Translations under genes and position numbers: made by a program
The notes under the pieces: model-generated
Database searches by the model: none
What the model saw: only the letters and a program-made list of their open reading frames with translations
Told to the model about the DNA's origin: nothing
Shown: positions 9,861-34,256 of the stretch, piece by piece
How the letters are laid out: each line of letters begins with the position of its first letter
Numbering within the stretch: the first letter of the stretch is position 1
Virus record (IMG/VR): IMGVR_UViG_3300023175_000071
Span: 1-45,831 of that record
Strand: one strand, 5' to 3'
Origin: a virus
DNA length: 45,831 nt

Positions 9861-12449
9861 ATGGCAAATAGATTTCCCCTAGTATTAGACACTACAGACG
9901 GCAATAAAATTAAGGAATTGCCCGACGGTGATAATCTAGATCTTACAAATAGTAGTATAATAAGCGTTAATGATATTAATTCTAGTGGAACTATCAGCAC
10001 TTCAGAATTATTAGTGCGAGGCTTTCCAGTAAAACCTGTAGGGTTTTCAGATTTAATTGATACACCTGCAACATTCGAAGACGCAGAAAACTTTTTTGTA
10101 AAAGTAAATTCCAACGGTGACGGAATCGAATATAGGCCATTGGGTGATCTAGGTACTATTAATGTACAGAACATTGTCGGCTCAGGCGATATAGAACCAG
10201 AAACAACTTTTACAGGCAATATAGGTACAGATGAAAGAGCTTGGAGCAGAGTAAGAGCAGTTAATTTAGTAGGTAATCTAGTTGACGAGTCAGGAAGTGT
10301 TGTTTTCAATTCTACAACAGGTTTGATTTCATATGCTGCACTAGGCGGCGCTCCTCAATTTTTATCTGAATTTACAGACGATATTGGTTTTTTAAGAATA
10401 GAGGATTTAGATGATCAACTAGGTAGTTTATTTAGCAGTGCACCATTTGTAAGTGATCTACAAGGATCTGTATTCGGTGACGACTCATCTATGCTTATAG
10501 ATGGAATAAGCAGTTTAGTTGTTGGTAATGTTGAAAACGCAACAACAACTAGTACAACAGTCACAGCAGGTGACGTGAATGCTACAAATGCATCTATCAC
10601 AACTTCTTTAGACCTTACAGGATCACGCACAAGTAATCTTACAATGATTACACCTATATCAGGTATAGGAGGATTAACACTTACAACAAGCGGTAATAAT
10701 CAACAAGAACTAATAAACATTCAACCAGCAGCAACAGGTGAAGTAAACATTACTGCTGATAAAATAAGATTCATCGGAGATGTAGTACAGCCTATAAATG
10801 CAAGTGGTGGCTTTGTTGGAGACTTAACAGGTTCTGTAGTTTCAGATAACAGCACAGTCATAATAGATGGTGTTGCAGGAAAAATAATTACACCCACAAT
10901 AGCTGGTCCTGCGTTTTTTGAAGACGATGTTGTTGTAAATGGTAATCTTACAATACAGGGCACAACAACAGAAATTAACAGTACAACACTAACAGTAGAC
11001 GATCTTAATGTTGTAGTTGCAAGTGGAGCAGCAGACGCAAATGCCGCCAATGGTGCAGGTCTTAGTGTTGACGGTTCAGGTGCAGCACTCACATATACAA
11101 GTGTTGATGATAGATGGAACTTTAATAAAGAATTAAATGTTGCAAGAGTTTACGGAAATGTAACAGGCGACTTACTTGGCGATGTTACAGGAAATGTGTC
11201 AGGAGATGTTACAGGAGATGTTAAAGCTCTCAACGGAGTGACAGTTCTTAATAGTGGCACAAATGGAATAGATGCTACATTTGCAGGTGATGTTATAGGT
11301 AACACTACAGGTTATCATACAGGCGATGTTACAGGATCAGTATTTTCAGATGATTCGTCTGTAATGGTAGATGCGGTCAACAATACTATGCATGCTACAA
11401 GTTTTGCAGGTATAGGAATAAATGTTTCATTAGTTGATACTAACGGTCCTGGACCATTACAAATAAAGGCAGGCGCAACTACTGATACTGGCAACACTAT
11501 TTTCATTAATCCGTACGGTAGCGACACAGTTGTTCAAACACAAGCAGAAACTCACACATGGCTTACAGGACCTTATTTAGATGCAGGTCCAAATCCTTCT
11601 TTAGAATTTAAAACAGCAGGTGCATTTACAGCCCTTGACGGTGCTTATTTTGTAGGCGATTTAACTGGTGATATTGATAATTCTACACTTAATATGGGTG
11701 CAACAGCAACAACAATCAACATTGGACATGCAGGTAGCACAACAAATATTGCAGGCGATGTAAGTTTTAATACGGCTCTATTTGTAAACAATATTACAGC
11801 AGACGATAGTATACAAATTACAACAGCAGCAGGCAACAACAACGGTATTACTTTAAGCCCGCAAGGTACAAATACTACTATTAATTTGCTTGCAGACGCT
11901 GTTAGATTATTTGGCACGCCGTTTAGCGATACATTAAATGCAAATGGCGGAATAGTAGGTGATATCAAAGGTAGTGTAGTTGGCGACGACAGTACAATAT
12001 TAGTAGATGCTGTAAACAATGTAATACCAAAAGCAAATGTTGAGGACAGCACAAATTGGGATACTGCTTATAGCTGGGGAGACCATGCAGGTGCAGGTTA
12101 TGCAACTACAGCAGATGTTAACACAGCTACAGCTAATGCAACAAATTGGGATACAGCGTATAGCTGGGGCGATCATTCACTTGCAGGTTACTTAACAGCT
12201 GGTGCATCGTTTACAGGAGATGTACAAGGTAGTGTGTTTGCAGATGACAGTAGTCCAATGGTTGACGCGGTGAATTATGCGATGTTTACTGACTTTATGA
12301 ATTTAACACCGTTAGCAATTGAACCAGAAAATCCAATAGATGGAATGGTCGTTGCTGCGGACAGAGTAACTTGGGATCCTGCGGCAAAAGGATCAGGAAG
12401 AAGTTATCCAGTTTATTACGACGGTGCTGTATGGCAGCCTTTATATTAA
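9861..12449 (+). CDS. Tail-fibre protein with GSV-DDS repeats (862 aa)
   Basis: Probable tail-fibre subunit with its own late promoter (9830) and an AGGA ribosome site. It lacks the GTGD N-terminal module of its neighbours and starts MANRFPLVLDTTDGNKIKEL. At least five copies of the D-x-x-G-S-V-x-x-D-D/N-S repeat are spread along it (for example DLQGSVFGDDS, DLTGSVVSDNS, DVTGSVFSDDS, DIKGSVVGDDS, DVQGSVFADDS), mixed with collagen-poor, Thr/Asn-rich beta segments such as GDVTGNVSGDVTGDV. Two NWDTAYSWGDH units lie near residues 735-765. The C-terminus (DGMVVAADRVTWDP, then PVYYDGAVWQPLY) parallels that of the 525-aa protein. It probably contacts the host surface, but no receptor can be inferred. 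Confidence 0.8.
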   Translation: MANRFPLVLDTTDGNKIKELPDGDNLDLTNSSIISVNDINSSGTISTSELLVRGFPVKPVGFSDLIDTPATFEDAENFFVKVNSNGDGIEYRPLGDLGTINVQNIVGSGDIEPETTFTGNIGTDERAWSRVRAVNLVGNLVDESGSVVFNSTTGLISYAALGGAPQFLSEFTDDIGFLRIEDLDDQLGSLFSSAPFVSDLQGSVFGDDSSMLIDGISSLVVGNVENATTTSTTVTAGDVNATNASITTSLDLTGSRTSNLTMITPISGIGGLTLTTSGNNQQELINIQPAATGEVNITADKIRFIGDVVQPINASGGFVGDLTGSVVSDNSTVIIDGVAGKIITPTIAGPAFFEDDVVVNGNLTIQGTTTEINSTTLTVDDLNVVVASGAADANAANGAGLSVDGSGAALTYTSVDDRWNFNKELNVARVYGNVTGDLLGDVTGNVSGDVTGDVKALNGVTVLNSGTNGIDATFAGDVIGNTTGYHTGDVTGSVFSDDSSVMVDAVNNTMHATSFAGIGINVSLVDTNGPGPLQIKAGATTDTGNTIFINPYGSDTVVQTQAETHTWLTGPYLDAGPNPSLEFKTAGAFTALDGAYFVGDLTGDIDNSTLNMGATATTINIGHAGSTTNIAGDVSFNTALFVNNITADDSIQITTAAGNNNGITLSPQGTNTTINLLADAVRLFGTPFSDTLNANGGIVGDIKGSVVGDDSTILVDAVNNVIPKANVEDSTNWDTAYSWGDHAGAGYATTADVNTATANATNWDTAYSWGDHSLAGYLTAGASFTGDVQGSVFADDSSPMVDAVNYAMFTDFMNLTPLAIEPENPIDGMVVAADRVTWDPAAKGSGRSYPVYYDGAVWQPLY

Positions 12450-12461
12450 TAGGAATTTAAA

Positions 12462-15400
12462 ATGAGCGAAAGAGAATACATAGTAAGTTTAAACAAAGGC
12501 GTAGACTACGAAGCATTTAATCAAGAGATGATTGCAACAACAGGTGCAGGAGCAATTCCAGGTCGTGCAGTAGAAGTTGCAAATGCTCGCCCAGGATCCC
12601 AGCGTAATACTCATTATAGTTTAACTGATGCAGAAGCTGCTGCATTAAATAATGATCCAAGAGTGTTAGCATGCGAATTACGTCCTGATCTAAGAGACGA
12701 CATAGAAATGGTAAGATTGACTTCACAACCAGGCGATTTTACTAAAACTAGTTCTGATTCAGGCGACTTTATAAACTGGGGTCTTGCTCGTTGTAATTTT
12801 ATAGATAATCCTTATATTGGTAATGCTGGTCCATCAGAATATAATCATACATTGGATGGCACAGGAGTTGATATTGTTATACAAGACAGTGGTATTCAAG
12901 TAGATCATCCAGAATTTGAAAATTATTCTGGAACCTCACGTGTGCAGCAAATTGATTGGTATTCTGCAAGTGGTTTACCAGGTACACAAAGTAGTAATCA
13001 TTACAGAGATTATGATGGTCACGGAACACATTGCGCAGGTATAGCCGCAGGACTTACTTATGGTTGGGCGAAAAATGCTAGAATCTATAGTGTAAAGGTT
13101 GCAGGCTTAGAAGGTTCCGGTGATTCGGGCACCGGTATAGATGTTAGTGACTGTTTTGATGTGATAAAAGAGTGGCACAATAATAAACCAGCAGATGCTG
13201 CTACAGGTGCAAAACGTCCTACAATAGTAAACATGAGTTGGGGATATGGTACATACTTTACACGTATAAGTGGCGGAACATATAGAGGAACACCTTGGTC
13301 AGGCTCCACTAGACGCACAGATTACGGAATGATAGGCACGTTCGATGGCGCAGGATATCGTTTTGGAGTTAGAGTAGCTTCGGTAGATGTTGACCTTGAA
13401 GAACTTATAGAGGCAGGAGTCCATGTATGTATCGCAGCAGGCAATAGTTTCCAGAAGATAGACGTTCCCGGAGGAGCAGATTACGATAACTTTTTTAATG
13501 ATTCTTTCTTTGGAGCAAGATATTATAATAGAGGAGGTTCGCCGCACAGCCAAAATGCCTTCATGGTAGGAAATATCGATAGTTCAATACATTCGAGTGG
13601 CAAAGAACAAAAAGCAGTAAGTTCGGAATCAGGTCCTGGTGTAAACATTTATGCTCCTGGCACGAATATAATGAGTGCATCTAGTACAGTGAACAAATTT
13701 GTAGATGGAGATTATCCTAGTAATTCAAGTTTTAAAATAATGAATATTAGCGGTACATCAATGGCTGCACCTCAAGTTGCTGGTATAGCAGCATTGTATG
13801 CACAGATACAACCAGACATTACTACTTCTGAAATGTTGAATTTCTTAACAAATAATGCTGGTAGTAGTAAAATTTACACAACAGGTTTAGATAACGATTA
13901 TGGCGACGAGCGCAGTATAAAAGGTGGTCCTAATCTTTTTGCCTATAATAAATTTAACTCTGCAACACAAATGCTGATAGGCGATGTTGACAAAGAAGGC
14001 ACACTTAATCCGACTTATAACCTGCAAGTATCTACAGTATCTGTAAACGAAGGCGGCTCGTTTACAATTACACTTACAACAACAAATGTAGCAGACGGAG
14101 TACAGATTCCATACACAATTTCAGGCGTTTCTTCTTCAGATATAGACGACGAAAGTTTGACAGGTAATTTTAATGTTTTACTAGGAACTGCAACATTAAA
14201 TATCAATGTTAGTGCTGATTTGACAACTGAAGGTCCAGAAACATTTAGATTAAGTTTAGACAATGAACCACAATTTGTAGATGTTACAATTAATGATACA
14301 AGTGTAGCAGTCACTCCTACATATACATTATCAGCAAGTGTTCCAAATGTATCTGAAGGTGATGATGTTACAATTACACTTACAACAGAATATGTTGATG
14401 ATAATACTAATGTTGCATATTTGATCTCTGGCGTATCTAGCGAAGATATTGCTGGAGAAAGTTTGAGTGGTAATCTAAACATCCAAAATAATACTGCTTC
14501 TATTATATTAAGAATTTCAGAGGATGCAACTACAGAAGGTTTAGAAACACTAATATTTTCGCTTGTAAACGGCGAAGACAGTATTTCAATAACAATTTCA
14601 GATACAAGCACAGCTGGTTCACAAGCATATAATTTATCTACAACTGCAAACGAAGTTAACGAAGGACAAAACTTTACTATTACGTTAGATACTTTAAATA
14701 TTCCTGATACAACAATTGTGCCTTACACTATCACAGGTGTCACTTCTGCAGACATCAACGGAGCGCCTACAAGTGGAAGTTTTACTATCTTGAATAACAC
14801 TGCATCAGTAGTGATCCAAACAACAGAGGATGCAACCACAGAAGGAGACGATAATTTTACTCTAACGCTGAATAACGGTGCAGATGAAATATCAGTTGTG
14901 ATAAAGGATACAAGTTTGACTCCTGAAGCGCAATTTACACTAACAGCTGACAGCACAACAGTTAATGAAGGAGATAGTGTTACTATTACTCTAACGACAA
15001 CTAATATTACAACCGGTGATCCTGTTGCTTATACAATCACTGGTATTGATGCGAATGATTTAAGTGCTGGTGATTTGACAGGTAACTTTACAATTGTTAA
15101 TAACACTGACGAACTTACATTTACTTTTGCTGAGGATGTAGCAACTGAAGGTACAGAAACTATGACGCTCACACTAGATGGGCCGGGAACAAGTATTGAT
15201 ATTACAATCAATGATACATCCCTTGCTCCAACTTACAATCTGACACCTAGTGCAGTGTCAGTTGACGAAGGTGAATCGTTAACTATTACATTAACAACCA
15301 CAGGAAGAAACGAAGGTGACAGTATTGCTTATTCAGTTACAGGAATATCAGAGGGGGATATATCAGCAGGTAGTTTAACTGGTGCTTTTGTGTTAGACTC

Positions 15401-15869
15401 AAATGGTAGTGCTTCTACTTCCTTTACATTTGTTGAAGATAGTGTGACTGAAGGAGATGAATTTTTCCAACTTTCACTTGAAGGTGGACCGACTGCATCT
15501 GTAAATGTAACAATTAATGATACTTCTTTAACACCTGCATTTGTACCAGATTATCAGATTACTGTTACTAATGCAGGTAACAATTACTACATGAGTGGTG
15601 AGGACAGAAATGGAACATTTAATAACCAGTTCCAACCAACACTAGCATACAACGACGGTGATAAAGTACAGTTTAATGTTGATGCAAGCACAGCTTCTGC
15701 ACACCCATTTTATATTAAAACACAACAGGTTGCAGGTACCGGTAGTCAGGCATCAGGCGTAGACGGCCAGGGTACAGGAACTTTGCAATGGACAATCGAC
15801 GGAACAGGAACTTATTACTACCAGTGTAGTATCCACAACGGCATGAATAACAGCATTACAGTAAGTTAA
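12462..15869 (+). CDS. Subtilisin-like (S8) protease with Calx-beta repeats and cupredoxin-like C-terminus
   Basis: Predicted serine endopeptidase of 1135 aa. The complete S8 set is visible: Asp142 in VIQDSG, His187 in DGHGTHCAG, the oxyanion Asn328 in IAAGNS, and Ser433 in SGTSMAAPQVAG. Residues 1-80 (YIVSLNKGVDYEAF, then ALNNDPRVLACEL) resemble an inhibitor-I9-type propeptide, so it may be made as a zymogen. Five Calx-beta-like repeats of about 100 residues follow (517-1025), each with SVNEG-type, TEG and INDTS segments; this fold often binds calcium. The last 100 residues have a type-1-copper-like ligand set: His1081, Cys1122, His1125 and Met1128. No signal peptide is seen. Its place inside the fibre block suggests a virion-borne protease acting on host surface proteins or on the fibres; this is inference. 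Confidence 0.88.
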   Translation: MSEREYIVSLNKGVDYEAFNQEMIATTGAGAIPGRAVEVANARPGSQRNTHYSLTDAEAAALNNDPRVLACELRPDLRDDIEMVRLTSQPGDFTKTSSDSGDFINWGLARCNFIDNPYIGNAGPSEYNHTLDGTGVDIVIQDSGIQVDHPEFENYSGTSRVQQIDWYSASGLPGTQSSNHYRDYDGHGTHCAGIAAGLTYGWAKNARIYSVKVAGLEGSGDSGTGIDVSDCFDVIKEWHNNKPADAATGAKRPTIVNMSWGYGTYFTRISGGTYRGTPWSGSTRRTDYGMIGTFDGAGYRFGVRVASVDVDLEELIEAGVHVCIAAGNSFQKIDVPGGADYDNFFNDSFFGARYYNRGGSPHSQNAFMVGNIDSSIHSSGKEQKAVSSESGPGVNIYAPGTNIMSASSTVNKFVDGDYPSNSSFKIMNISGTSMAAPQVAGIAALYAQIQPDITTSEMLNFLTNNAGSSKIYTTGLDNDYGDERSIKGGPNLFAYNKFNSATQMLIGDVDKEGTLNPTYNLQVSTVSVNEGGSFTITLTTTNVADGVQIPYTISGVSSSDIDDESLTGNFNVLLGTATLNINVSADLTTEGPETFRLSLDNEPQFVDVTINDTSVAVTPTYTLSASVPNVSEGDDVTITLTTEYVDDNTNVAYLISGVSSEDIAGESLSGNLNIQNNTASIILRISEDATTEGLETLIFSLVNGEDSISITISDTSTAGSQAYNLSTTANEVNEGQNFTITLDTLNIPDTTIVPYTITGVTSADINGAPTSGSFTILNNTASVVIQTTEDATTEGDDNFTLTLNNGADEISVVIKDTSLTPEAQFTLTADSTTVNEGDSVTITLTTTNITTGDPVAYTITGIDANDLSAGDLTGNFTIVNNTDELTFTFAEDVATEGTETMTLTLDGPGTSIDITINDTSLAPTYNLTPSAVSVDEGESLTITLTTTGRNEGDSIAYSVTGISEGDISAGSLTGAFVLDSNGSASTSFTFVEDSVTEGDEFFQLSLEGGPTASVNVTINDTSLTPAFVPDYQITVTNAGNNYYMSGEDRNGTFNNQFQPTLAYNDGDKVQFNVDASTASAHPFYIKTQQVAGTGSQASGVDGQGTGTLQWTIDGTGTYYYQCSIHNGMNNSITVS
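14010..15540 (+). repeat. Five Calx-beta-like protein repeats
   Basis: Five consecutive units of about 306 bases (about 102 codons) encode related beta domains in the protease gene. Each begins with a P-T-Y-N-L-like strand, continues with a VNEG...TITLTT segment, a TGN/SG...F-I strand, an E-x-x-T-E-G turn and ends with I-N-D-T-S or a close variant. The units are clearly diverged at the DNA level, so they are old duplications, not fresh tandem copies. Confidence 0.75.
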
Positions 15870-15882: not shown

Positions 15883-16353
15883 ATGGCAATTGAATTAATA
15901 AACATAGGGCAAATTGCAAACGACGGTACAGGAGATGACCTCCGTGAAGCGTTTGTAAAAGTTAACAGAAATTTCGAAGATCTAGACCTGCGTGACAATG
16001 AGAAAACCACTGTAACGAATACAGGCACAGGTATAGGTATTTTTGATAATATAGTAAATTATGACATTAGATTAAAATCCCTAGTTGCTGGTGATAATAT
16101 GTTTATAGACGCAACTCCAAATGGTGACATTTTAATTGCTTCTGATACAAATGCATTTACAGAAATTACTCTAGAAGTAGAAAACGGTGAAAAAACATAC
16201 CTTCAAGGGCAGAATATTAAAATCCACGGCGGCATAGGTATAGACGTAGAAGTTGCAGATAATGGATTTATTTACGTTAATAATAAGTATAACGATAAAC
16301 TAGAAAATGAATCAGATCCTAAACTTTCGGCTAACTTACGCAGACGACAATGA
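15883..16353 (+). CDS. Short tail fibre, N-terminal portion (frame broken at about 16336)
   Basis: Fibre-like protein starting with the shared attachment module (INIGQIANDGTGDDLREAF, then KVNRNFEDLDL). It runs in frame to LENESDPKLSANL and then turns into LRRRQ and stops at 16353. The expected continuation after DPKLSANL in such fibres is a D-x-N-x-x-D-I stretch, and exactly this (YADDNDILAVNTIQARTFLG) is encoded one frame over, in the segment annotated at 16307-16600. So the two pieces look like one gene of about 239 codons interrupted by a one-base change near 16330-16340. An error in the assembled sequence, a real lesion, or +1 frameshifting would each explain it. The ribosome site is AGGA upstream of ATG 15883. 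Confidence 0.7.
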   Translation: MAIELINIGQIANDGTGDDLREAFVKVNRNFEDLDLRDNEKTTVTNTGTGIGIFDNIVNYDIRLKSLVAGDNMFIDATPNGDILIASDTNAFTEITLEVENGEKTYLQGQNIKIHGGIGIDVEVADNGFIYVNNKYNDKLENESDPKLSANLRRRQ

Positions 16354-16600
16354 TATACTAGCTGTTAACACAATACAAGCAAGAACATTTTTGGGTAATG
16401 TTACAGGCAATGTTACAGGTTTAATAAATGGATACGATCCATCTACTATTGGTCCATACTTTGATCAATACTTTGATTTTGGAGATATAGGGCGCACTGT
16501 AAACAGTATAATTGATTGGATGTTAGAAGACGCAAATGTAGATTTTGGAACTTTTGCTTTACCAGACCCAAGGACAATTGACTTAGGATCTATTGCATAA
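16307..16600 (+). CDS. Short tail fibre, C-terminal portion in shifted frame
   Basis: Continuation of the fibre gene that starts at 15883, in the +1 frame. The nominal ATG at 16307 has no clear ribosome site, and its first residues (MNQILNFRLT) look like out-of-frame translation of the upstream gene. Fibre-type sequence begins at YADDNDILAVN (about 16335) and continues through FLGNVTGNVTGLINGYDP to an acidic C-terminus ending LPDPRTIDLGSIA. The frame upstream closes with TAG at 16301-16303, so any join must occur between 16304 and 16353. I regard it as part of a single broken or recoded gene and not as an independent gene. Confidence 0.55.
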   Translation: MNQILNFRLTYADDNDILAVNTIQARTFLGNVTGNVTGLINGYDPSTIGPYFDQYFDFGDIGRTVNSIIDWMLEDANVDFGTFALPDPRTIDLGSIA

Positions 16601-25401: not shown

Positions 25402-26316
25402 TTGAAAGAGCTATGGGTAGAAAAGTATCGTCCTAAGACGGTAGATGGTTATGTATTTAGAGATGAAGCTCAGCGAAATCAAGTAAATACATGGATAAAG
25501 GACAAAACTATTCCGCATTTGTTGTTTAGCGGAAATGCAGGTATTGGTAAAACAACACTTGCTAAACTGTTGTTTAACGAACTAGATGTTAATGACCTAG
25601 ACATACTAGAAATAAACGCAAGTCGTACAAACTCAGTAGACGATGTACGTGATAAAATTGTAAACTTTGTTCAAATGATTCCATTTGGCGAGTTTAAGGT
25701 GGTACTATTAGATGAAGCTGACTACTTATCTCCAAACGCTCAAGCGGCACTGCGTGGTGTTATGGAGGAGTATCATACTACTGCTCGTTTTATTCTTACT
25801 TGTAACTATCCAAATCGTGTTATACCCGCTTTGCACAGTAGGTGTCAAGGTTTCCACATTGCTAAAATTGACCAAACTGAGTTCACAGCTAGAGTTGCTG
25901 AAATTCTTATCACTGAAGGTGTTACTCCTGATTTGGATACACTTGATACATACGTAAAAGCAACTTACCCAGACTTGCGTAAGTGTATCAACACTGTACA
26001 AATGAATAGCGTTGACGGTGTATTGAACAAACCTAATGAAGGTGACACTGGCGAAAGCGACTGGAAACTTGAAATGGTTGAACTGTTTAAAGCAGGCAAG
26101 ATTCAAGAAGCACGTAAACTCTTGTGCGGAGCCATCCGTCCAGAAGAGATGGAAGAAGTGTATCGTTGGCTGTATGATAACATTGAATTGTTCGGTGACG
26201 AAGAAAAACAAGATACAGCAGTTCTAACAATTAAACAAGGAATGGTTGATCACACGCTTGTTGTGGATCCTGAAATTAATTTAGCGGCGACATTAATTCG
26301 CCTTGCGAGGATATAA
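25402..26316 (+). CDS. 44: Sliding-clamp loader large subunit (gp44 family)
   Basis: AAA+ ATPase that loads the phage sliding clamp at primer-template junctions. The 304-aa product is close to T4 gp44 (319 aa). Motifs: Walker A GNAGIGKT at 44-51, Walker B VVLLDEAD at 100-107, sensor-1 TCNYPNRV near 133-140 and the SRC motif at 146-148 with the arginine finger. The start is TTG at 25402, chosen because AGGA precedes it and the conserved [11 protein letters not shown]-terminus follows directly; no ATG is available. The partner gp62 gene does not follow, in contrast to T4, and I find no candidate in this window. The stop overlaps the ferredoxin start (TAATG). Confidence 0.92.
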
Positions 26317-26663
26317 TGACATATCTAGTTACAGAAAATTGTATTAAGTGTAAACATACTGATTGCGTAGAAGTATGTCCTGTAGACTGTTTTTATGAAG
26401 GTGAAAACTTTTTAGTAATCAATCCTAACGAATGTATAGATTGCGGAGTTTGTGTTCCAGAATGTCCTATTGATGCTATTGTTGCAGACAGTGACTTGTC
26501 AGAACCAGAACGAATAAAATGGATTGAAATAAACGACCGCTATGCAAATATTTGGCCTGTAATTACACAATCAAAAGGCTCATTACCCGATGCAGTTGAT
26601 TGGGAAGATGTGCCTAACAAATTAGAACTTCTAAGTCCAGCAGCAGGGGAAGGAGATGTTTAA
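26316..26663 (+). CDS. fdxA: Bacterial 7Fe-type ferredoxin (FdxA-like)
   Basis: 115-aa low-potential electron carrier. The N-terminus carries two cluster motifs: [19 protein letters not shown] and then [18 protein letters not shown], the pattern of [3Fe-4S][4Fe-4S] ferredoxins of the FdxA type, whose length (about 107-115 aa) and C-terminal extension ([13 protein letters not shown]) also match. The family is widespread in Proteobacteria; it differs from the plant-type PetF ferredoxin known in cyanophages. Start and stop overlap the neighbours (TAATG both sides), so it is co-translated with gp44 and folA. The electron acceptor is unknown; a reductase in nucleotide synthesis is an attractive guess. 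It was probably acquired from a host. Confidence 0.9.
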
Positions 26664-27160
26664 TGATACGTGCAATTTTAGCGTGTGATGATAAAGGTGG
26701 AGTAAGTAAAGATGGTACACTACCATGGCCACACAATAGCACAGACTTAAAATGGTTTAAAGACAACACAGCAGGACATATTGTTGTAATGGGATCTACC
26801 ACTTGGAAAGATCCTCACATGCCTCGACCTTTGCCTAAACGTGTAAATGTACTAGCAACTAGTAAAGAAACTGATTATCCTGGAGCACATGGTTATATTA
26901 ATGGCGATCTATGTGCAGGTGTACGCAGTTTAGAAATAGAATCACCTGGTTTAATTACCTGGATCATTGGTGGTCCAAACATTATTGAACAAACACTAGG
27001 AGTAATTGACGAATTTTATTTAAGTCGTATTCCAGGAGAATATGAATGCGACACGCATCTACCATTAAAAAAGATCGAAACATTATTTGAAAGATCTTGG
27101 TGTGAAGAAAAGGATGGCGTGACATTTGAAATTTGGAGTAAACGTGAAACAGTATCTTGA
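26663..27160 (+). CDS. folA: Dihydrofolate reductase
   Basis: 165-aa DHFR, which regenerates tetrahydrofolate with NADPH after thymidylate synthesis. Features: [18 protein letters not shown] (with the substrate-loop region), LPWPHNSTDLKWFKDNT (active-site helix with acidic Asp), VVMGSTTW for NADPH binding, WIIGGPNIIEQ and an FYLSRIPGEYECDTHLP end. Length matches bacterial enzymes. The ATG at 26663 overlaps the ferredoxin stop, and its 3' end overlaps thyA by 17 bases, so the two halves of the folate cycle are coupled. Confidence 0.92.
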   Translation: MIRAILACDDKGGVSKDGTLPWPHNSTDLKWFKDNTAGHIVVMGSTTWKDPHMPRPLPKRVNVLATSKETDYPGAHGYINGDLCAGVRSLEIESPGLITWIIGGPNIIEQTLGVIDEFYLSRIPGEYECDTHLPLKKIETLFERSWCEEKDGVTFEIWSKRETVS

Positions 27161-28010
27161 TGCACTAAAATATATAATAGAAAACGGTAATGATCGCAGT
27201 GATAGAACAGGTGTAGGCACACGAGGTGTTTTTGGCTATCAAATGCGTTTTGATTTGCGGAATGAATTCCCTGCTGTAACAACAAAGAAGCTTGCATGGA
27301 AGAGTGTAGTAAGCGAGCTACTTTGGATGCTAGAAGGATCTAGTGACGAGCGTAGACTTGCTGAAATACACTATGGCAAGCCGAGAGAAGAACTTGTAGG
27401 CAAAACAACCATTTGGACTGCTAATGCAGATGCACAAGGTAAAGATTTGGGGTATATCAACGACGATACAACTAAAGACCTAGGCCCTGTATATGGACAC
27501 CAATGGCGTAAGTGGGATGCACAACTAGGGTTTGTCGACCAAATTGCAGAAGTGCTTGAAAATATGTATTATGACCCAGATAGTAGACGTCACATTGTAA
27601 GTGCGTGGAATGCTGATAGAGTAAATGTCATGGCACTTCCGCCTTGTCACACACTATTCCAGTTTCATATACAAGACGGTGAACTAAGTTGTCAATTATA
27701 TCAACGTTCAGCAGATATGTTCTTAGGTGTTCCATTTAACATTGCAAGTTACAGTTTATTGACGCATATGTTTGCACAGTTGCTTAATTTAAAAGTAGGT
27801 GATTTTGTATGGACTGGTGGCGATTGTCACATCTATCAAAATCATATGGAACAAGTTAAGGAACAAATTACAAGAACTCCTCAAAGCGGACCTAGTTTGA
27901 TAATGCCTGCATTTACAGATTTAGATGAACTTGTAAAAACTACTCCAGATCAGTATAAACTTATAAATTATACTCCAATGGATAGTATTAAAGCACCAAT
28001 GGCGGTATAA
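27144..28010 (+). CDS. thyA: Thymidylate synthase (ThyA)
   Basis: Makes dTMP from dUMP with methylene-tetrahydrofolate. The catalytic Cys is residue 168 in ALPPCHTLFQFH; also visible are SRRHIVSAWNADRVN with the phosphate-binding arginines, CQLYQRSADMFLGVPFNIAS and the DCHIYQNH segment. I choose GTG at 27144 because GGAG at 27134-27137 is 6 bases ahead and the start then reads VKQYLDALKYI, like T4 td (MKQYQDLI). That gives 288 aa, close to T4 td (286). A TTG at 27126 is the longer alternative. There is no sign of an intron, in contrast to T4 td. Confidence 0.93.
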   Translation: MKQYLDALKYIIENGNDRSDRTGVGTRGVFGYQMRFDLRNEFPAVTTKKLAWKSVVSELLWMLEGSSDERRLAEIHYGKPREELVGKTTIWTANADAQGKDLGYINDDTTKDLGPVYGHQWRKWDAQLGFVDQIAEVLENMYYDPDSRRHIVSAWNADRVNVMALPPCHTLFQFHIQDGELSCQLYQRSADMFLGVPFNIASYSLLTHMFAQLLNLKVGDFVWTGGDCHIYQNHMEQVKEQITRTPQSGPSLIMPAFTDLDELVKTTPDQYKLINYTPMDSIKAPMAV

Positions 28011-28011
28011 C

Positions 28012-28233
28012 ATGTTTAATAACGACGAAGAAAACTACGAATTACAACGAGAAGCAAAAGAAGTTGCTCGTAAAACAATGCAAATGGATGACTGGGAACG
28101 CTATGTTGAAGGTGCAGCATTTAAAATTTTAAAACTAGAGCGAGAACTTACACGCTTAAAATTTAATTTTTATCTTTTATTATTTTTTATATTTGGTTTG
28201 CCTATTATACTTAGATTATTAGGAATAGGATGA
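28012..28233 (+). CDS. Small protein with C-terminal membrane anchor (73 aa)
   Basis: Begins one base after thyA. The first 50 residues are charged and helical (EENYELQREAKEVARKTMQM, then FKILKLERELTRL), consistent with a coiled coil; residues 52-70 (FYLLLFFIFGLPIILRLLG) form one clear membrane span at the C-terminus. It is a tail-anchored type protein with the charged part in the cytoplasm by the usual rule. No family is recognised. Its stop overlaps the next start (ATGA). Confidence 0.65.
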   Translation: MFNNDEENYELQREAKEVARKTMQMDDWERYVEGAAFKILKLERELTRLKFNFYLLLFFIFGLPIILRLLGIG

Positions 28234-28466
28234 AGCATATAAGTGCATTCTTTGATAGAGTAGAGGAGCCTAAAGAAAAATTTGCTTGGTTGCCTGTCAA
28301 AAGTAGTTTTAGTAAAAAACGTATATGGTTAAAAAAATATATAGAATTACACATATATTTTGACGAAACTGGCAGACCTCCAATACAAGGACGTAGTTGG
28401 ACTTTAAATTATACGCAAAACGAATATTTGTTGTACTTGCTAAAGAAAGAAAATAATGAAAAGTAA
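28230..28466 (+). CDS. Small basic protein, unknown (78 aa)
   Basis: ATG 28230 overlaps the stop of the membrane-anchored protein (ATGA), and its end overlaps the deaminase gene by 11 bases. The product is rich in Lys, Tyr and Trp (FAWLPVKSSFSKKRIWLKKY) and looks like a small alpha/beta fold. I do not recognise it. The coupled position in the thyA-to-deaminase run suggests expression with nucleotide metabolism genes, but no enzymatic motif is present. Confidence 0.6.
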   Translation: MKHISAFFDRVEEPKEKFAWLPVKSSFSKKRIWLKKYIELHIYFDETGRPPIQGRSWTLNYTQNEYLLYLLKKENNEK

Positions 28467-28896
28467 GTTTATAAATGCATATATGGACGTTGCTGAACGT
28501 TTTGCACAACTAAGTAGTGCCAAACGTCTACAAGTAGGAGCGATTGTTGTAAAAGATGATCGTATTATCTCCATTGGCTACAATGGTATGCCCAGTGGCT
28601 GGGATAACTGCTGTGAGGAATGGTACGGTGAAGACGAATGGGGTAATACTATTACCAAAAGCAAAAAGGAAGTGCTTCACGCAGAATCAAATGCGATTGC
28701 TAAACTTGCCAGATCTTCTGAAAGCGGTGAAGGGGCAACTATTTTTATCACACACTCACCTTGCATAGAGTGTTCCAAGCTCATTTATCAAAGTGGTATA
28801 TCAACTGTGTACTACAAAAATGAATATCGTAGTACACAGGGAATTAAATTTTTAGAGAAGTCAAATATTACAGTTATTCATCACCATAAATCTTGA
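28456..28896 (+). CDS. cd: dCMP deaminase (T4 Cd-like)
   Basis: 146-aa zinc-dependent deaminase that converts dCMP to dUMP and so feeds ThyA. Zinc ligands and the catalytic Glu are visible: His75 and Glu77 in VLHAESNAI, and Cys103 with Cys106 in SPCIECSKLI. The N-terminus (SAKRLQVGAIVVKDDRIIS) and the G-Y-N-G-M-P-S segment are typical of the phage and bacterial dCMP deaminase family. A shorter insertion than in T4 Cd is seen between the G-Y-N and H-A-E motifs. The 3' end overlaps the convergent phoH gene by 23 bases. Confidence 0.9.
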   Translation: MKSKFINAYMDVAERFAQLSSAKRLQVGAIVVKDDRIISIGYNGMPSGWDNCCEEWYGEDEWGNTITKSKKEVLHAESNAIAKLARSSESGEGATIFITHSPCIECSKLIYQSGISTVYYKNEYRSTQGIKFLEKSNITVIHHHKS

Positions 28897-29596
28897 GAAC
28901 TTCTTTTACAGCTTCGTGTCTTTCTATATCTCCTTGTCCAAAGTTTACAATATCTATATGAGATAAATTTGCTTCTGCAAGACGGTCTGTAAAGTCTATT
29001 AGACCATTATCCTTTAGTCTATCTGCTTGAGCTAGATCGCCTGTTACAGCCATCATAGAGCCTTCGCCTAGACGTGTAAGTAGCATTTTCATTTGATTTT
29101 GAGTAGCGTTCTGCATTTCATCAGCAAGTATAAAACTGTTTTTAAAAGTTCTACCTCTCATATATGCTAGTGGCGCTATTTCAATTATACCCTCTTCGAT
29201 CATGCCTTCTATTTCTCTTGCATTGAAATATTCTCTTAGTACGTCAAATATAGGTCTAGTCCATGGAGCCATTTTTTGTTCTAGTGTTCCTGGTAAGAAG
29301 CCTAAGTCTTCATCTACGCTAACAGCAGGTCTTGTAACAATGATCTTATCAATTTGCCCTTCCTTGAATAGTTTAACTGCGACCTGTACTGCAAGTAGTG
29401 TTTTACCCGTACCTGCAGGACCGATTCCAAATACTATGTCTTTGGTTTCGTCTAACAATTGAAGTACATATTGTTCTTGATTTCTATTTCTTGGAAGTAT
29501 TTTTACTTGTTGTTGTTTTTGTGTTGTAAAGTTGACGTTAACTACATTACTATAGTTATTTTTTGACTGCCGGGCAGCCTTTCTCTTTGCACCCAT
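28874..29596 (-). CDS. phoH: PhoH-like P-loop ATPase
   Basis: 240-aa protein of the PhoH family, the only - strand gene here. Walker A GPAGTGKT at 59-66, Walker B in SFILADEMQNAT, the V-T-R-P-A-V motif and MAVTGDLAQADR are all present. It corresponds to the core ATPase form without the PIN domain. PhoH is a hallmark gene of marine phages; a link to phosphate stress or RNA metabolism is proposed, but its role in infection is unproved. Translation starts at ATG 29594-29596 with a strong AAAGGAGG site. A T4-type late promoter on this strand and a leader hairpin lie upstream. It is convergent with, and overlaps, the deaminase gene. Confidence 0.92.
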   Translation of the reverse strand: MGAKRKAARQSKNNYSNVVNVNFTTQKQQQVKILPRNRNQEQYVLQLLDETKDIVFGIGPAGTGKTLLAVQVAVKLFKEGQIDKIIVTRPAVSVDEDLGFLPGTLEQKMAPWTRPIFDVLREYFNAREIEGMIEEGIIEIAPLAYMRGRTFKNSFILADEMQNATQNQMKMLLTRLGEGSMMAVTGDLAQADRLKDNGLIDFTDRLAEANLSHIDIVNFGQGDIERHEAVKEVLKIYGDE

Positions 29597-29620
29597 TAAG
29601 TGTCCTCCTTTGGATGTGGA

Positions 29621-29654
29621 GTAGAACGCAGTGTGTAGAACACACTTGCTCTAC
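29621..29654 (-). promoter_or_regulatory. Hairpin in the phoH 5' leader
   Basis: On the + strand the segment reads GTAGAACGCAGTGTGTAGA and then ACACACTTGCTCTAC. The outer arms GTAGA/TCTAC and the inner arms GCA-GTGTGT/ACACAC-TTGC pair around an AGA loop with one bulge and a small internal mismatch. It lies between the late promoter at 29660-29667 and the ribosome site at about 29604-29610, so any phoH mRNA from that promoter would carry it. It could protect the 5' end or control translation. Confidence 0.55.
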
Positions 29655-29659
29655 AAATG

Positions 29660-29667
29660 TATTTATA
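29660..29667 (-). promoter_or_regulatory. T4-type late promoter TATAAATA for phoH
   Basis: The + strand reads TATTTATA, that is TATAAATA on the - strand, an exact match to the T4 late promoter core. It lies 63 bases upstream of the phoH ATG and is the only exact eight-base match I found in an intergenic region. It indicates that phoH is made late, or also late. Confidence 0.65.
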
Positions 29668-29731
29668 AGTTTGAATACTATAAAAAACACTTTGTTTTCT
29701 CTTTACAAAAAAATCATAAGTAGTCTTTTCA

Positions 29732-29739
29732 GATAAATA
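29732..29739 (+). promoter_or_regulatory. T4-type late promoter box GATAAATA
   Basis: GATAAATA lies 22 bases ahead of ATG 29762 and is divergent from the phoH late promoter 65 bases away. It would start the late transcript for the two unknown genes and the lysis cassette that follow. Confidence 0.65.
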
Positions 29740-29761
29740 ATATAAAGTGATAGGTTTCAAT

Positions 29762-30271
29762 ATGCATGATTCATTAGACATAATCAAAAACATAGAATCA
29801 ATCTATGATTCTAATACAGCTTTCAAAGTGTTAAAAGATTTTGAGAGAGTGCTTGACCATTTAGACCTTTATGTGTATAAAAATTGGGAAGATGGAGAAC
29901 TAGCAGAAGGACCAAACATTGGACGGCATTGGGTAACATGCAGCTTTTATTGGCCTGAAGATAAAATGCCAGATCCAATGGGCGGAAAGCGTCTTATAGA
30001 TTATGACTGTAAAGTAAAATACAAAAAGACGTCTTTAATATTACCACGTAAAATTGAATCGCCAGATGATATTCGCCCAGGTACTAAAAAAGGTAAACTA
30101 GACAGACATCCTATATGGGTAGTTGAAATAATGATGCCAAAGAAACTAATTGCTGACATATATACAGGTTATTTAGACGACATGTCTGCAACTGCTGATA
30201 CAATGGCACCTGCACCAGAAGCGCAGCAAGCAGACGAACTGGCTGCAGAAGCACCAGAGGGAGCTGAATAA
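29762..30271 (+). CDS. Conserved-looking phage protein, unknown (169 aa)
   Basis: I choose ATG 29762 (MHDSLDIIKNIESIYD); a GTG 15 bases earlier would fall too close to the late promoter. The protein has a helical N-terminus, a central GRHWVTCSFYWPEDKMPDP stretch, a KVKYKKTSLILPRKIESPDD segment and an Ala/Glu-rich tail. From memory, this P-D-P-x-G...R-P-G-T-K-K-G-K-L pattern recurs in marine T4-like phages without a known function. Late promoter and coupling (TAATG) to the next gene suggest a virion component. Confidence 0.6.
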   Translation: MHDSLDIIKNIESIYDSNTAFKVLKDFERVLDHLDLYVYKNWEDGELAEGPNIGRHWVTCSFYWPEDKMPDPMGGKRLIDYDCKVKYKKTSLILPRKIESPDDIRPGTKKGKLDRHPIWVVEIMMPKKLIADIYTGYLDDMSATADTMAPAPEAQQADELAAEAPEGAE

Positions 30272-30990
30272 TGACTTTGCGTACAGGAGATTTACAACAC
30301 CTTGTCGATAAGGTTGTAGAAATAGATTCATATAAAAGTAAGATGGGCTCCGACTCTGATATTATCACAATAGCATTTAGTACAAAAACAGGCGAATCGG
30401 CAACTGACATGAGTAACTTTTTTGAAAGAGGTTATTCATTTGTTTTAGATGCTGACGCTACTTCGGGAGAAACTAGCGACGGTACTTACAAAGTTTTTGT
30501 AGAAATTGAAAGAACTGATGATGCGTCAGACAATATAATGGAATTGATAGACGGTGTATCAAAACTTGCTGACACTAATGATATGAGATTCAGATATTAC
30601 AAAAACTTTAAGAGCCAAAGTTTTTCACAAGAAAATTTACAAGAATTTCTGCCAACAACCGCAGACGATTATGACGTTGCAATACAAGAAACAAGATTAC
30701 AAAATTACAAAAACTTTTTTGATAAAAGTTTTGTAGAAGAAGTGTATATGGAAGACAATATGCTTGTTATTAAAAAAGCATATGCAGATCCAATAGCATT
30801 TGAATTTAAAGATATAGGGCCGACACAAGAAACACTGGATTCTATTACAGAATCTTTTAACGCTGACGACTTTGCAGAAATTATTTTTCTTACAAAGTAT
30901 ATAGGCGACTACAATATTACTAAATATGGGCGTAAGTTAACTTTCGAAAATGAGGGGCACACTCTTGTTCTTGAAAGGATTGTAGTATAA
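30271..30990 (+). CDS. Probable late protein, unknown (239 aa)
   Basis: ATG 30271 overlaps the preceding stop (TAATG), so both are made together from the late promoter at 29732. The product is acidic, with an alpha/beta start (HLVDKVVEIDSYKSKMGSDS) and a C-terminal half rich in Phe and Tyr (YKNFFDKSFVEEVYMEDNML), ending in a beta-like TKYGRKLTFENEGHTLVLER. No motif is recognised. It precedes the endolysin gene by 11 bases, but nothing ties it to lysis. Confidence 0.55.
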   Translation: MTLRTGDLQHLVDKVVEIDSYKSKMGSDSDIITIAFSTKTGESATDMSNFFERGYSFVLDADATSGETSDGTYKVFVEIERTDDASDNIMELIDGVSKLADTNDMRFRYYKNFKSQSFSQENLQEFLPTTADDYDVAIQETRLQNYKNFFDKSFVEEVYMEDNMLVIKKAYADPIAFEFKDIGPTQETLDSITESFNADDFAEIIFLTKYIGDYNITKYGRKLTFENEGHTLVLERIVV

Positions 30991-31001
30991 AGGATAAAAA
31001 A

Positions 31002-31349
31002 ATGGCAGCAGAAGATTTTGGCTTTGAATTCACCGAAGAAATGGTGATAGAATTGCTTCGCGGAAACGAAGAAGCAGAAGATTGGTACGATGCAATGTGT
31101 GAAATACTTCCTCTTTGGGAGGTTGACTCTGCAGAGCGTGTAGCGATGTTTATTGCACAGTGTGGACATGAATCAAACAATTTTAAAGTACTAAGTGAAA
31201 ATTTAAATTATAGTGCAAAAGCACTTAACGCAATATTTCCAAAATATTTTGAAAGGGCAGGTAGAGATGCTCAAGAATATCACAGACAACCACGCAAGAT
31301 TGCAAATGTAATTTATGCAAACAGAATGGACAATGGCGATATTGATTAA
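31002..31349 (+). CDS. GH19-type endolysin, N-terminal portion (in-frame TAA)
   Basis: Lysozyme/chitinase-like (GH19) endolysin that would cut the glycan chains of the cell wall. Residues 51-72 (IAQCGHESNNFKVLSENLNY) contain Glu57 and Glu66 in the positions typical of the catalytic and assisting acids of phage GH19 enzymes, and FPKYF and NVIYANRMDNGD follow as expected. At codon 116 a TAA (31347-31349) ends the frame. The very next codons, in the same frame, read GDGWTFRGGGILQLTGRYNY, the normal continuation of the domain. So the gene runs 31002-31850 with one stop inside it. A TCA (Ser) or GAA (Glu) codon is the likely original. It may be a sequence error, a true lesion or a readthrough site. 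Confidence 0.82.
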   Translation: MAAEDFGFEFTEEMVIELLRGNEEAEDWYDAMCEILPLWEVDSAERVAMFIAQCGHESNNFKVLSENLNYSAKALNAIFPKYFERAGRDAQEYHRQPRKIANVIYANRMDNGDID

Positions 31350-31433
31350 GGCGACGGCTGGACATTTAGAGGCGGCGGCATTCTACAACTTACAGGTCGT
31401 TACAACTATACGAAGTTTGGCGAAGAAGTTGAC

Positions 31434-31850
31434 ATGTCACCCGAAGAAGCAGTAGAATATGTGCGCACCAAAAAAGGCGCACTAGATAGTGCTTGCTGGT
31501 TCTGGGATACAAATGGTCTAAATAAGTATGCAGATGCAATGGACATCAAAGGTGCTACAAAACGTATCAACGGTGGTTACATTGGTTTAGAAGATCGTGA
31601 AAAGCATTACAAACACGCTATGGAAGTGCTAGGCGGCGACTGGGAACCAGCTGCTATTGTGTACGAAACAGTGCGTTTAGGATCAAAAGGACCAACAGTA
31701 CGTGCAGTGCAAGAAGAATTAGAAATTGGTGCAGATGGAGTCTTTGGTAGAGGCACAGAAGCACACGTAAAAGCTTGGCAGGAAGAAAACGGTCTAACAG
31801 CAGACGGTATTATGGGTCCTGCAAGTCTTAAATTAATGTTTGAGGGTTAA
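31434..31850 (+). CDS. GH19-type endolysin, C-terminal portion with peptidoglycan-binding domain
   Basis: Same frame as the segment ending at 31349; open from 31350 on. The first possible independent start is ATG 31434, which would omit the GGGILQLTGRYNY substrate-cleft part. Residues after that start cover the end of the GH19 domain (ALDSACWFWDTNGLNKYADA, then ATKRINGGYIG) and a complete PG-binding-1 domain at the C-terminus (RLGSKGPTVRAVQEELEIG, ADGVFGRGTEAHVKAWQEEN, GLTADGIMGPASLKLMF). Modular GH19 plus peptidoglycan-binding endolysins are known in phages, though the binding domain is more often at the N-terminus. Alone this piece could bind cell wall but not cut it. Confidence 0.78.
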   Translation: MSPEEAVEYVRTKKGALDSACWFWDTNGLNKYADAMDIKGATKRINGGYIGLEDREKHYKHAMEVLGGDWEPAAIVYETVRLGSKGPTVRAVQEELEIGADGVFGRGTEAHVKAWQEENGLTADGIMGPASLKLMFEG

Positions 31851-31853
31851 ATT

Positions 31854-32357
31854 ATGAAACTGTCAGGAATGCTTTTAATTGTTATAATGACTATGGGTGG
31901 TATAGGATATTGGTATTACACTGATACACAACGGACTATTGCTGTACTAACTGAAAACAATGCTAAACTTGAACTGGCAGTTGCCACAAACGAAGAAACA
32001 ATCAAGGCAATGGCGGCGGATTTTGCTGCCGCTAATGAAGAATTAAAAAAAGTAAACACTGAGTTTGCTAATATTCGTAGACAAAATCAAGAACTAGCAA
32101 ATAAACTAGCAGATATTGATATGACCGCAGCAGCCATAGCTAACCCAGCAGCAATTGAAAGAGCGGTAAATAGAGGTAGTATAAATGCAGGCAGATGCTT
32201 TGAATTATTAAGTGGTGCTGAACTAACAGAGGATGAGAAAAATGCAGAAAATGCAAGGTCTTTTAACAAAGAGTGCCCTTGGCTTTATGATACTTATAAG
32301 TCTCGCGGCATGCTCAACGACCCCACAAGTAATACAAATAACCAGCAAACCGATTGA
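31854..32357 (+). CDS. Predicted i-spanin (Rz-like)
   Basis: Inner-membrane subunit of the spanin complex that fuses inner and outer membranes at the end of lysis. The 167-aa protein has one N-terminal membrane span (MLLIVIMTMGGIGYWYY, residues 6-22), then a long charged coiled coil (residues 30-100, with heptad-like Ala/Leu/Glu spacing), then a periplasmic end with two Cys (GRCFELLSG, ECPWLYDTY). The layout and the place three bases after the endolysin are those of Rz. The o-spanin gene is embedded in its 3' end in another frame, the classic Rz/Rz1 arrangement. Confidence 0.75.
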   Translation: MKLSGMLLIVIMTMGGIGYWYYTDTQRTIAVLTENNAKLELAVATNEETIKAMAADFAAANEELKKVNTEFANIRRQNQELANKLADIDMTAAAIANPAAIERAVNRGSINAGRCFELLSGAELTEDEKNAENARSFNKECPWLYDTYKSRGMLNDPTSNTNNQQTD

Positions 32358-32715
32358 TAAACCGGAATTGGTGCTACCGCCAGTTGACGAAGTCAACATG
32401 CGCCGTATTGAGTGGATTGTTATTAACGAAAATAATATCGAAGAAGTAAAAGCTCGTATTGAAAGCGAAGGCAAGGCATTTGCCTTCTATGCACTAACCG
32501 GTGACGGTTATGGAGCTTTAGGATTAAACTTTTCAGACATTCGTGCGTTAGTACAGCAACAACAACAGATTATTGTTGCATATGAAAACTATTACAAAGC
32601 AGCAAACAAAGCTCTTGATGAAGCAGAAGCACAGCGTCAAGCTGAAGAAGAAGAAGATGCTGCAAGAGAAGCTCAACTTAATAAAGGTATAGACTTAAAC
32701 CCATTCAATGATTAA
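32242..32715 (+). CDS. Predicted o-spanin lipoprotein (Rz1-like)
   Basis: Outer-membrane partner of the i-spanin. The N-terminus is a lipoprotein signal: basic start, hydrophobic run (SALGFMILIS) and lipobox L-A-A-C with Cys24 as lipidated residue. Mature protein: a Pro-rich start (ITSKPIDKPELVLPPVDEV), a compact middle and a helical Gln/Glu/Ala-rich C-terminus. It is longer (157 aa) than typical Rz1 proteins. I choose ATG 32242 because AGAGG lies 9 bases upstream; ATGs at 32233 and 32251 are in the same frame. It overlaps the i-spanin gene by 116 bases and the next gene by 8. The C-terminal helix could meet the i-spanin coiled coil. Confidence 0.72.
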   Translation: MQKMQGLLTKSALGFMILISLAACSTTPQVIQITSKPIDKPELVLPPVDEVNMRRIEWIVINENNIEEVKARIESEGKAFAFYALTGDGYGALGLNFSDIRALVQQQQQIIVAYENYYKAANKALDEAEAQRQAEEEEDAAREAQLNKGIDLNPFND

Positions 32716-34228
32716 TAATAAGTCCGTTTTCCTAGGGCTTAGATTGTGTGAACATGACACAAACATATCTTTGTCTATAGGCACTACTGTCAAATATAGA
32801 AAGACAGAACGAAACACACAAATTAAACATCATTCTTTTGCTAATCTTTATGATTGGTTGTTTGTTTTAGAAGAATGGAATATTGATGTTGCTGATATAG
32901 ATGCAATAGGAATTGTCGTTGACGATAAAAACTATGATTGTATATCAGTAAATGATTACGATGCTCCGTATGAATTACTTAACCATTCTTACCCTCACTG
33001 GGATCATGTTAAATGTCCAATTTATAGAATAGATCATCATTATGCACATGTAATGAGTTGCTGGCCTATGGGTATTGAGTCTACAACAGACTTTGTTTTT
33101 GACGGTTTTGGTGATGATGAACGTTCGCATACAATTTATAAAAACAAAAAAGTATTTCATTATGCCAAGTTGTCTGAAGCAGAAAGTATTGGTCGCTACT
33201 TTGGTACTATAGGTTCGCATGTAGGTATGAAGGGTTATTTGCTAGATCATGCAGGCAAATTAATGGGGCTAAAATCCTACGGAAATTTTGATGTTGAGTT
33301 TTATAAACAAATTTCTCATTGTGGTATGTACGATGTTGCAGAACTTCTAAACATACAAAAATGGTATGCTTACAAAGGTACTAATAATTTAGAAGAAAGC
33401 AAATGGGTAGACTGGTTGCGTACAATACATGATCATTTAGAAAAAATTTATCCTAACTATTTTTTAAAATTTTGTAATCCGGACGAAATAATTACATATT
33501 CAGGCGGAATCGCACAAAATACAGTTATTAATACTAAAATTAAAGAAGTTATTCCTAATATTCATATACCTCCGCATTCTCCAGACGATGGATTAAGTTT
33601 AGGATGTATAGAAGTATTAAGACAAATATACGATGCTGAACCTTTTGATACTGACGGATTCCCATTTTGGCAAGATGATCAAGAACCTAACACGGTTGCA
33701 AGTTCTAAAACTATTAAAGAAACAGCAGAAAGACTTGCTAGAGGAGAAATTGTAGGCTGGTATCAAGGCAAAGGTGAAATAGGTCCAAGGGCACTAGGAA
33801 ATAGATCAGTTTTAATGAACCCTAGTGTTAAAGACGGAAAAGATATAATTAATAACAAAGTTAAATTTAGAGAACCATATAGACCTTTCGGTGCATCAAT
33901 ATTGCTTGATTATACAAATGAATATTTTGAATGGGATGAACCTAGTCCTTACATGCTTTATGTTCAAAAAGTTAGAGATAAACAAAAATTTAAACCAATT
34001 ACACACATAGACGGTACTTGTCGTATACAAACTGTAGGTAATGAAAATTTACTGTATGCTGAACTTATAGAAGAATTTAGAAAGCTAACAGGAATACCTA
34101 TGCTGTTAAACACAAGTTTAAATGTCAATACAAAACCCATTGCAGGATATAAAAGTAACGCATGGGAAATATTCCACAAAACTGCTATAGACAGAGTTGT
34201 AATAGGTAACGAAGTTTTACAAAAATAG
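32708..34228 (+). CDS. NodU/TobZ-family carbamoyltransferase
   Basis: 506-aa O-carbamoyltransferase. Such enzymes use carbamoyl phosphate and ATP to form carbamoyl adenylate and transfer the group to a hydroxyl of a sugar, antibiotic or nucleoside. Visible marks are an ASKHA-like N-terminus (FLGLRLCEHDTNISL), a metal/substrate site HHYAHV, FDGFGDDE, the SGGIAQNTVIN segment, GEIGPRALGNRSVLMNP (the YrdC-like C-domain start), REPYRPFGASI and TGIPMLLNTSLN. Homologues occur in marine T4-like phages. The acceptor is unknown; DNA bases, a virion glycan or a host surface sugar are candidates. ATG lies inside the end of the o-spanin gene, so it is probably expressed with the lysis cassette. Confidence 0.85.
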   Translation: MINNKSVFLGLRLCEHDTNISLSIGTTVKYRKTERNTQIKHHSFANLYDWLFVLEEWNIDVADIDAIGIVVDDKNYDCISVNDYDAPYELLNHSYPHWDHVKCPIYRIDHHYAHVMSCWPMGIESTTDFVFDGFGDDERSHTIYKNKKVFHYAKLSEAESIGRYFGTIGSHVGMKGYLLDHAGKLMGLKSYGNFDVEFYKQISHCGMYDVAELLNIQKWYAYKGTNNLEESKWVDWLRTIHDHLEKIYPNYFLKFCNPDEIITYSGGIAQNTVINTKIKEVIPNIHIPPHSPDDGLSLGCIEVLRQIYDAEPFDTDGFPFWQDDQEPNTVASSKTIKETAERLARGEIVGWYQGKGEIGPRALGNRSVLMNPSVKDGKDIINNKVKFREPYRPFGASILLDYTNEYFEWDEPSPYMLYVQKVRDKQKFKPITHIDGTCRIQTVGNENLLYAELIEEFRKLTGIPMLLNTSLNVNTKPIAGYKSNAWEIFHKTAIDRVVIGNEVLQK

Positions 34229-34229
34229 G

Positions 34230-34237
34230 AATAAATA
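34230..34237 (+). promoter_or_regulatory. Late-promoter-like box AATAAATA
   Basis: AATAAATA directly follows the carbamoyltransferase stop, 19 bases ahead of ATG 34257. It fits the NATAAATA form and the spacing of the other late boxes in the window, with A in place of the usual G or T. It would drive the three small membrane-protein genes. Confidence 0.5.
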
Positions 34238-34256
34238 CATTAGCGGAGGGTAGCTA

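Follow-up and report, generated by a model that had tools for sequence, protein, structure and literature searches.

S8-family peptidases have been annotated in the phages S-H9-1, S-H38, S-WAM2, Sf-FR1 and S-CREM1, and those of cyanophages were discussed by Sullivan et al. 2010 (PMC3037559). Because of these precedents, the original prediction of an undescribed system is not supported for the system as a whole. The part that seems to be undescribed is the cupredoxin module of the tail, whose copper ligands are conserved: we found no relevant description of phage cupredoxins or tail plastocyanins in the open-access literature, nor among the annotated names that we encountered.

The protein analyzed here, of 1135 aa, is encoded on a 45,831-nucleotide stretch of viral DNA (IMG/VR record IMGVR_UViG_3300023175_000071), which as a whole is referred to as the window. 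Its closest described counterparts are the cyanophage S8 peptidases (P-SSM2 PSSM2_297 / T4-GC 292, S-H9-1, S-H38, S-WAM2, S-CREM1 and ACG-2014e/h/j; phrog_9158), which have a prodomain, an S8 core and the same place among tail genes, and those of ACG-2014h/j and S-H9-1 also end in a cupredoxin. On the other hand, core identity is about 25-37%, and, where examined, they do not have the five-repeat rod, these repeats being found elsewhere. S-SCSM1_228 shares the prodomain, the S8 triad and the location in a tail block, but it is 1411 aa long and LamG domains replace the repeats and the cupredoxin. In Atu_ph07 gp329, the S8 triad is likewise followed by Ig-like repeats, there is a tail-fibre gene two genes away, and the clamp loader and ClpA match those of the window; its repeats, however, are He_PIG repeats, and it has no cupredoxin.

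Individual domains have known counterparts. Proteinase K and subtilisin (PF00082) have the same fold, triad, oxyanion Asn and, apparently, prodomain arrangement, whereas the window protein differs in its phage tail context, its C-terminal rod and tip, and its lack of a signal peptide. The tip has the fold of amicyanin, plastocyanin and Cu nitrite reductase (PF00127), with an H...CxxHxxM motif at amicyanin spacing, but it is fused to phage tail proteins and its single-sequence Pfam score is below the cut-off. The repeats resemble the Calx-beta domains CBD1/CBD2 of the Na/Ca exchanger in their conserved acidic positions and, probably, in their beta-sandwich fold; they are below the Pfam cut-off and end in xDTS, not DDD. 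The residues and domain order predicted earlier for this ORF proved correct residue for residue, and the features are as follows.

9861..12449, + strand: upstream neighbour, an 862-aa tail-fibre-family protein (phrog_9729)
12462..15869, + strand: complete ORF of 1135 aa, with prodomain, S8 protease, five Calx-beta-like repeats and cupredoxin
12462..12716, + strand: putative I9-like propeptide at fold level, residues 1-85 (model strands and helices at 4-85)
12717..12773, + strand: low-confidence linker, residues 86-104 (pLDDT < 50 at 87-95), a likely processing region
12774..13931, + strand: proteinase-K-like S8 catalytic domain, residues 105-490 (HMM, PDB sequence search, model)
12885..12887, + strand: catalytic Asp142 (37/37 relatives)
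13020..13022, + strand: catalytic His187 (37/37 relatives)
13443..13445, + strand: oxyanion Asn328 (37/37 relatives)
13758..13760, + strand: catalytic Ser433 in GTSMA (36/36 relatives with sequence there)
14007..15527, + strand: five Calx-beta-like repeats, residues 516-1022 (repeat profile; six conserved acidic positions)
15537..15866, + strand: cupredoxin domain, residues 1026-1135 (profile, model, ligand conservation)
15702..15704, + strand: putative copper ligand His1081 (87/90 non-redundant domains)
15825..15845, + strand: putative copper-ligand loop C1122-x2-H1125-x2-M1128, amicyanin spacing (C 87/90, H 87/90, M 84/90)
15883..16600, + strand: downstream neighbour whose N-terminus resembles T4 gp9/10 (the type for baseplate attachment), with a 2-base difference that splits the gene

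The protease core and its probable propeptide

Several lines of evidence identify the core. Firstly, the Pfam HMM Peptidase_S8 (PF00082) matches residues 133-481 with 106.1 bits against a cut-off of 21.8 (E 2.8e-30), and keratinase, aqualysin and proteinase K were matched in a PDB sequence search. Secondly, the AlphaFold model of residues 1-512 (pLDDT 86, pTM 0.89) resembles the proteinase-K-type subtilisins 2b6n, 1sh7 and 2prk, with TM scores by target of 0.81-0.84 in a PDB structure search. Thirdly, the catalytic residues occur in the order D-H-N-S, with D142, H187 and N328 invariant in all 37 distinct relatives and S433 in the 36 that have sequence there. In the S8-only search set, pattern matching found all four catalytic motifs in 70 of 72 distinct ORFs, and the remaining two each lack one pattern. 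Because the active-site motifs are kept in both sets, the S8 protein is not a decaying enzyme. The HMM match, the proteinase K fold and the invariance among relatives thus uphold the predicted triad of Asp142, His187 and Ser433 with Asn328, as well as the designation as a protease, and the model indicates that the protein is a pro-subtilisin with a proteinase K fold.

The N-terminal segment had been described as I9-like, which is plausible at the level of the fold but not seen in Pfam, whose Inhibitor_I9 profile had no match on the 1135-aa protein up to E 10. The pro-enzymes 3afg and 3whi align with the model of residues 1-512 over 508-528 columns, N-terminal segment included, these being whole-chain alignments that carry no per-domain score. 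At fold level, the model supports an I9-like propeptide in residues 1-85, and at residues 87-95, the expected place of a pro/mature junction, its pLDDT is below 50. No signal peptide was seen in the N-terminus, and the protease itself has no recognised virion-attachment motif.

The repeat rod and the cupredoxin tip

A repeat profile delimits five repeats (residues 516-614, 617-716, 720-818, 822-920 and 922-1022; each E < 1e-30), and six positions are acidic (Asp/Glu) in at least 95% of 140 distinct repeats. The protein scored 12.3 bits against the Pfam Calx-beta (PF03160) cut-off of 27, and a PDB profile search with the repeats found no related chain by sequence. An assignment to Calx-beta on sequence alone, being below threshold in both searches, was therefore rejected. 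With a model of the last repeat plus the tip, CALX CBD12 was found at rank 2 with a probability of 1.00 and a low TM over the two-domain model, and we keep the term Calx-beta-like on the basis of the fold and the acidic residues. The five Calx-beta-like repeats originally claimed are thus confirmed in number, and the Calx-beta likeness is retained below the level of a Pfam assignment. The conserved acidic positions presumably correspond to the calcium ligands of NCX, and calcium binding by the repeats is plausible from sequence and model.

In the case of the tip, the cupredoxin profile matched Cu nitrite reductase (2vmj, 1.8e-5), plastocyanin and amicyanin, and Cu nitrite reductases and CueO were among the top PDB matches of the tip model, in which pLDDT within the domain is mostly 90-98. 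The isolated single-sequence domain narrowly missed Pfam Copper-bind (PF00127), with 18.7 bits against 21.2; both the Calx-beta and the cupredoxin calls are made on fold, profile and ligand conservation, with scores below the Pfam thresholds. The putative ligands are H1081, C1122, H1125 and M1128, the last three in a CxxHxxM loop with amicyanin spacing. Among 90 cupredoxin domains with pairwise identity below 80% (median 36%), Y95 (domain numbering) occurs in 90/90, each His and the Cys in 87/90, and the Met, like G41, in 84/90, these being the most conserved positions. The HCHM set is complete in 83 of them, an axial Gln occurs in three and an axial Leu in one, so that Gln, a natural type-1 variant, makes up three of the seven departures. 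Gln replaces this Met (CxxHxxQ, as in stellacyanin) in the C-terminal copies of loci L094, L125 and L127. The fold, the profile and this conservation bear out the predicted His/Cys/His/Met copper-type site, and copper binding by the tip is plausible on sequence and structural-model grounds.

It is possible, although in our estimate somewhat unlikely, that the cupredoxin and Calx-beta-like domains are metal-free beta-sandwich spacers or adhesins, an explanation that would fit either of the protease roles considered below. Phage fibres commonly contain Ig-like modules, the cytoplasm in which virions are put together has little free copper, and the single-sequence Pfam scores are under the cut-off; against these points stand the presence of H, C, H and M among the top conserved positions of domains this divergent, the natural type-1 character of three of the seven ligand departures, and the six acidic repeat positions.

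Gene context, module distribution and virion evidence

The predicted location in a tail-fibre block was confirmed in the window, in the reference phages and in PHROG tallies. Fibre, baseplate or virion-protein genes surround the S8 gene in 13 of the 13 reference phages inspected. In environmental loci, the upstream gene belongs to phrog_9729 (tail fibre) in 12 of 35 cases and to phrog_677 (baseplate wedge tail fibre connector) in 10 of 35, and the downstream gene to phrog_677 in 16 of 34. The gene at 15883-16600 of the window consists of two ORFs (156 + 97 aa), and is an intact gene of about 239 aa in the near-identical contigs L002-L004 and in relatives such as L058; the 2-base split is either a sequence error or a real variant.

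Further downstream, the backbone genes at 25402-41880 (clamp loader, ClpA) are closest to those of the jumbo phages PA5oct, Phosso and Atu_ph07, the clamp loader matching PA5oct at 55% and Atu_ph07 at 49%, and the ClpA-type ATPase matching jumbo phages at 41-45%. The gene order S8/fibres - clamp loader - ClpA resembles that of Atu_ph07, and the fibre block resembles cyanophages. Judged from sequence, the window genome is a mosaic of a jumbo-type backbone and a cyanophage-like fibre block. A cyanobacterial host, deduced from the fibre block, was rejected as unproven, since the clamp loader and ClpA match PA5oct and Atu_ph07 and the gene order is like that of Atu_ph07.

The S8 core is present in at least 580 viral loci, mostly as a free-standing protease of about 515 aa in tail/baseplate blocks of marine T4-like phages. 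In the set gathered with S8 as the query, 53 of the 70 complete ORFs are 504-544 aa long without additions, for which reason we rejected the view that rod and tip are required parts of the protease. The cupredoxin in this set lies in the same ORF in 14 of 72 cases and in an adjacent ORF in 17; there is none nearby in 39, and two are truncated. A quick tree was built from 73 S8 domains, part of which were gathered via the cupredoxin, and 10 of its inner branches have weak support. On this tree, the state of the cupredoxin (absent, C-terminal, ahead of the catalytic domain, or on both sides) changes at least 11 times. Based on the domain tallies and this tree, the core protease would work without rod or tip, and there have been repeated gains or losses of the tip.

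The cupredoxin module itself is found in at least 499 environmental viral loci and, among 50,697 phage records, in 207 that are nearly all from cyanophages. Its carriers include S8 proteases, gp9 proteins ("baseplate wedge tail fiber connector") and the proximal fibres of P-SSM2 and S-SCSM1, and rod repeats and tip also occur on other tail proteins, such as the virion-tagged S-SCSM1_231. Copies ahead of the S8 catalytic domain were observed in L127 (2455-8352), L043 (8251-13761; P-HM1) and L130-L132, and in the P-HM1 type cupredoxin copies flank the S8 domain on both sides. This placement suggests that the two modules were fused independently. Cellular homologues of the cupredoxin occur in RTX-like alphaproteobacterial proteins and, in flavobacteria, in short proteins whose N-termini are lipoprotein-like. 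Flavobacterial/Bacteroidota carriers of the same family, with such N-termini, are present on the MAG contigs L139, L143 and L142, and the phage module may have come from cellular proteins of this group.

Another domain, of about 250 aa, rich in conserved His/Glu and with the motif EVIEHV(M/F/L)HT(L/I)HMHG, is inserted at varying sites of S8 proteins: between repeats in L007, L009, L010, L037, L062 and L074, after the S8 domain in L035, and within it, after about residue 153, in L033 and L034. It had no significant Pfam match in L037, L035 and L033, and its sequence suggests a second enzyme domain that is mobile and may depend on metal.

The claim that the protease is virion-borne finds its support only through homologues. 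The deposited record of S-SCSM1 labels the S8 homologue S-SCSM1_228 (SSCSM1_228, QFG06492.1) as "(virion protein)". The S-SCSM1 study applied LC-MS/MS to CsCl-purified virions and found 45 proteins (PMC9602691), against 48 "virion protein" tags that we counted in the record. We take the tag to denote MS detection, because non-structural proteins such as NMNAT and a translational repressor are tagged and several predicted structural proteins are not. In Atu_ph07, virion proteomics set a virion gene cluster of CDS 284-329 (PMC6102473); gp329, the last gene of this cluster, is an S8 protease with complete triad motifs, and the numbering fits the paper (gp292 = ClpA), its detection in virions being deduced from the cluster boundary. 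S-SCSM1_228 and gp329 are only about 30% identical to the 1135-aa protein and end in LamG and He_PIG, respectively, without a cupredoxin. The cupredoxin-carrying proximal fibre of S-SCSM1 is virion-tagged.

Possible roles of the protease, and the possibility of tail-borne copper

Sequence comparison and models establish the domains, the triad, the conservation of the metal ligands and the tail gene context of the 1135-aa protein. With moderate confidence, we propose that it is a zymogen subtilisin attached to the tail or baseplate of a large marine T4-like (jumbo-type) myophage, where it would trim host surface proteins, its rod and tip being metal-bound. The protease would be expressed along with the fibre genes, and the I9-like propeptide would keep it inactive until lost, probably through self-cleavage near residues 86-104. 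Once in the virion, the active protease may trim proteins of the S-layer, the outer membrane or appendages and so give the fibres access to their receptor. The 515-aa core would suffice for this trimming, and, because most relatives are without both, rod and tip are not essential to the core function. The rod would consist of five calcium-binding Calx-beta-like repeats stiffened by calcium, and the cupredoxin tip may bind one type-1 copper ion; by attaching to a partner on a surface or fibre, this tip probably keeps the protease in position.

An unlikely alternative is that the enzyme is a maturation protease, which cuts fibre or baseplate proteins of the phage itself as the particle is assembled and then remains in it as a spent component. 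The S8 gene abuts fibre/connector genes, often 0-4 bases apart, phage head maturation uses proteases, and a zymogen suits timed assembly; long rods and a metal-site tip, however, are unexpected for an assembly protease, and T4-type tails are not known to require proteolysis. It is very unlikely that the protease is instead released for lysis or host takeover and is not a functional part of the virion, its detection in virions being carry-over, which the S-SCSM1 authors raise for some enzymes (PMC9602691). The consistent association of S8 with tail genes, the presence of domains common to structural tail proteins and an N-terminus in which no signal peptide was seen all argue against release. 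Finally, some S8 homologues elsewhere act as scaffolds, but a catalytically dead subtilisin serving as a binding scaffold was rejected as highly improbable here, the triad and oxyanion Asn being invariant and complete in essentially every relative.

Beyond the tail-attached zymogen proposed above, we tentatively suggest that tails of marine T4-like/jumbo-type phages may carry blue-copper (type-1) centres, as a mobile module on proteases, gp9-type connectors and proximal fibres that would take up copper from seawater, play a role in infection, and have been repeatedly gained, lost or moved on S8 proteases. Iron in phage tails has already been discussed in the literature (the Ferrojan Horse idea), and in the open-access literature that we searched no discussion of copper in phage tails was found. 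With the copper-site module in 207 isolate records and at least 499 viral loci, phage-borne copper becomes directly testable in isolates already available, such as P-SSM2, S-SCSM1 and S-H9-1, and the S8 protease is a concrete candidate for the means by which large marine phages pass through protein-covered cell surfaces.
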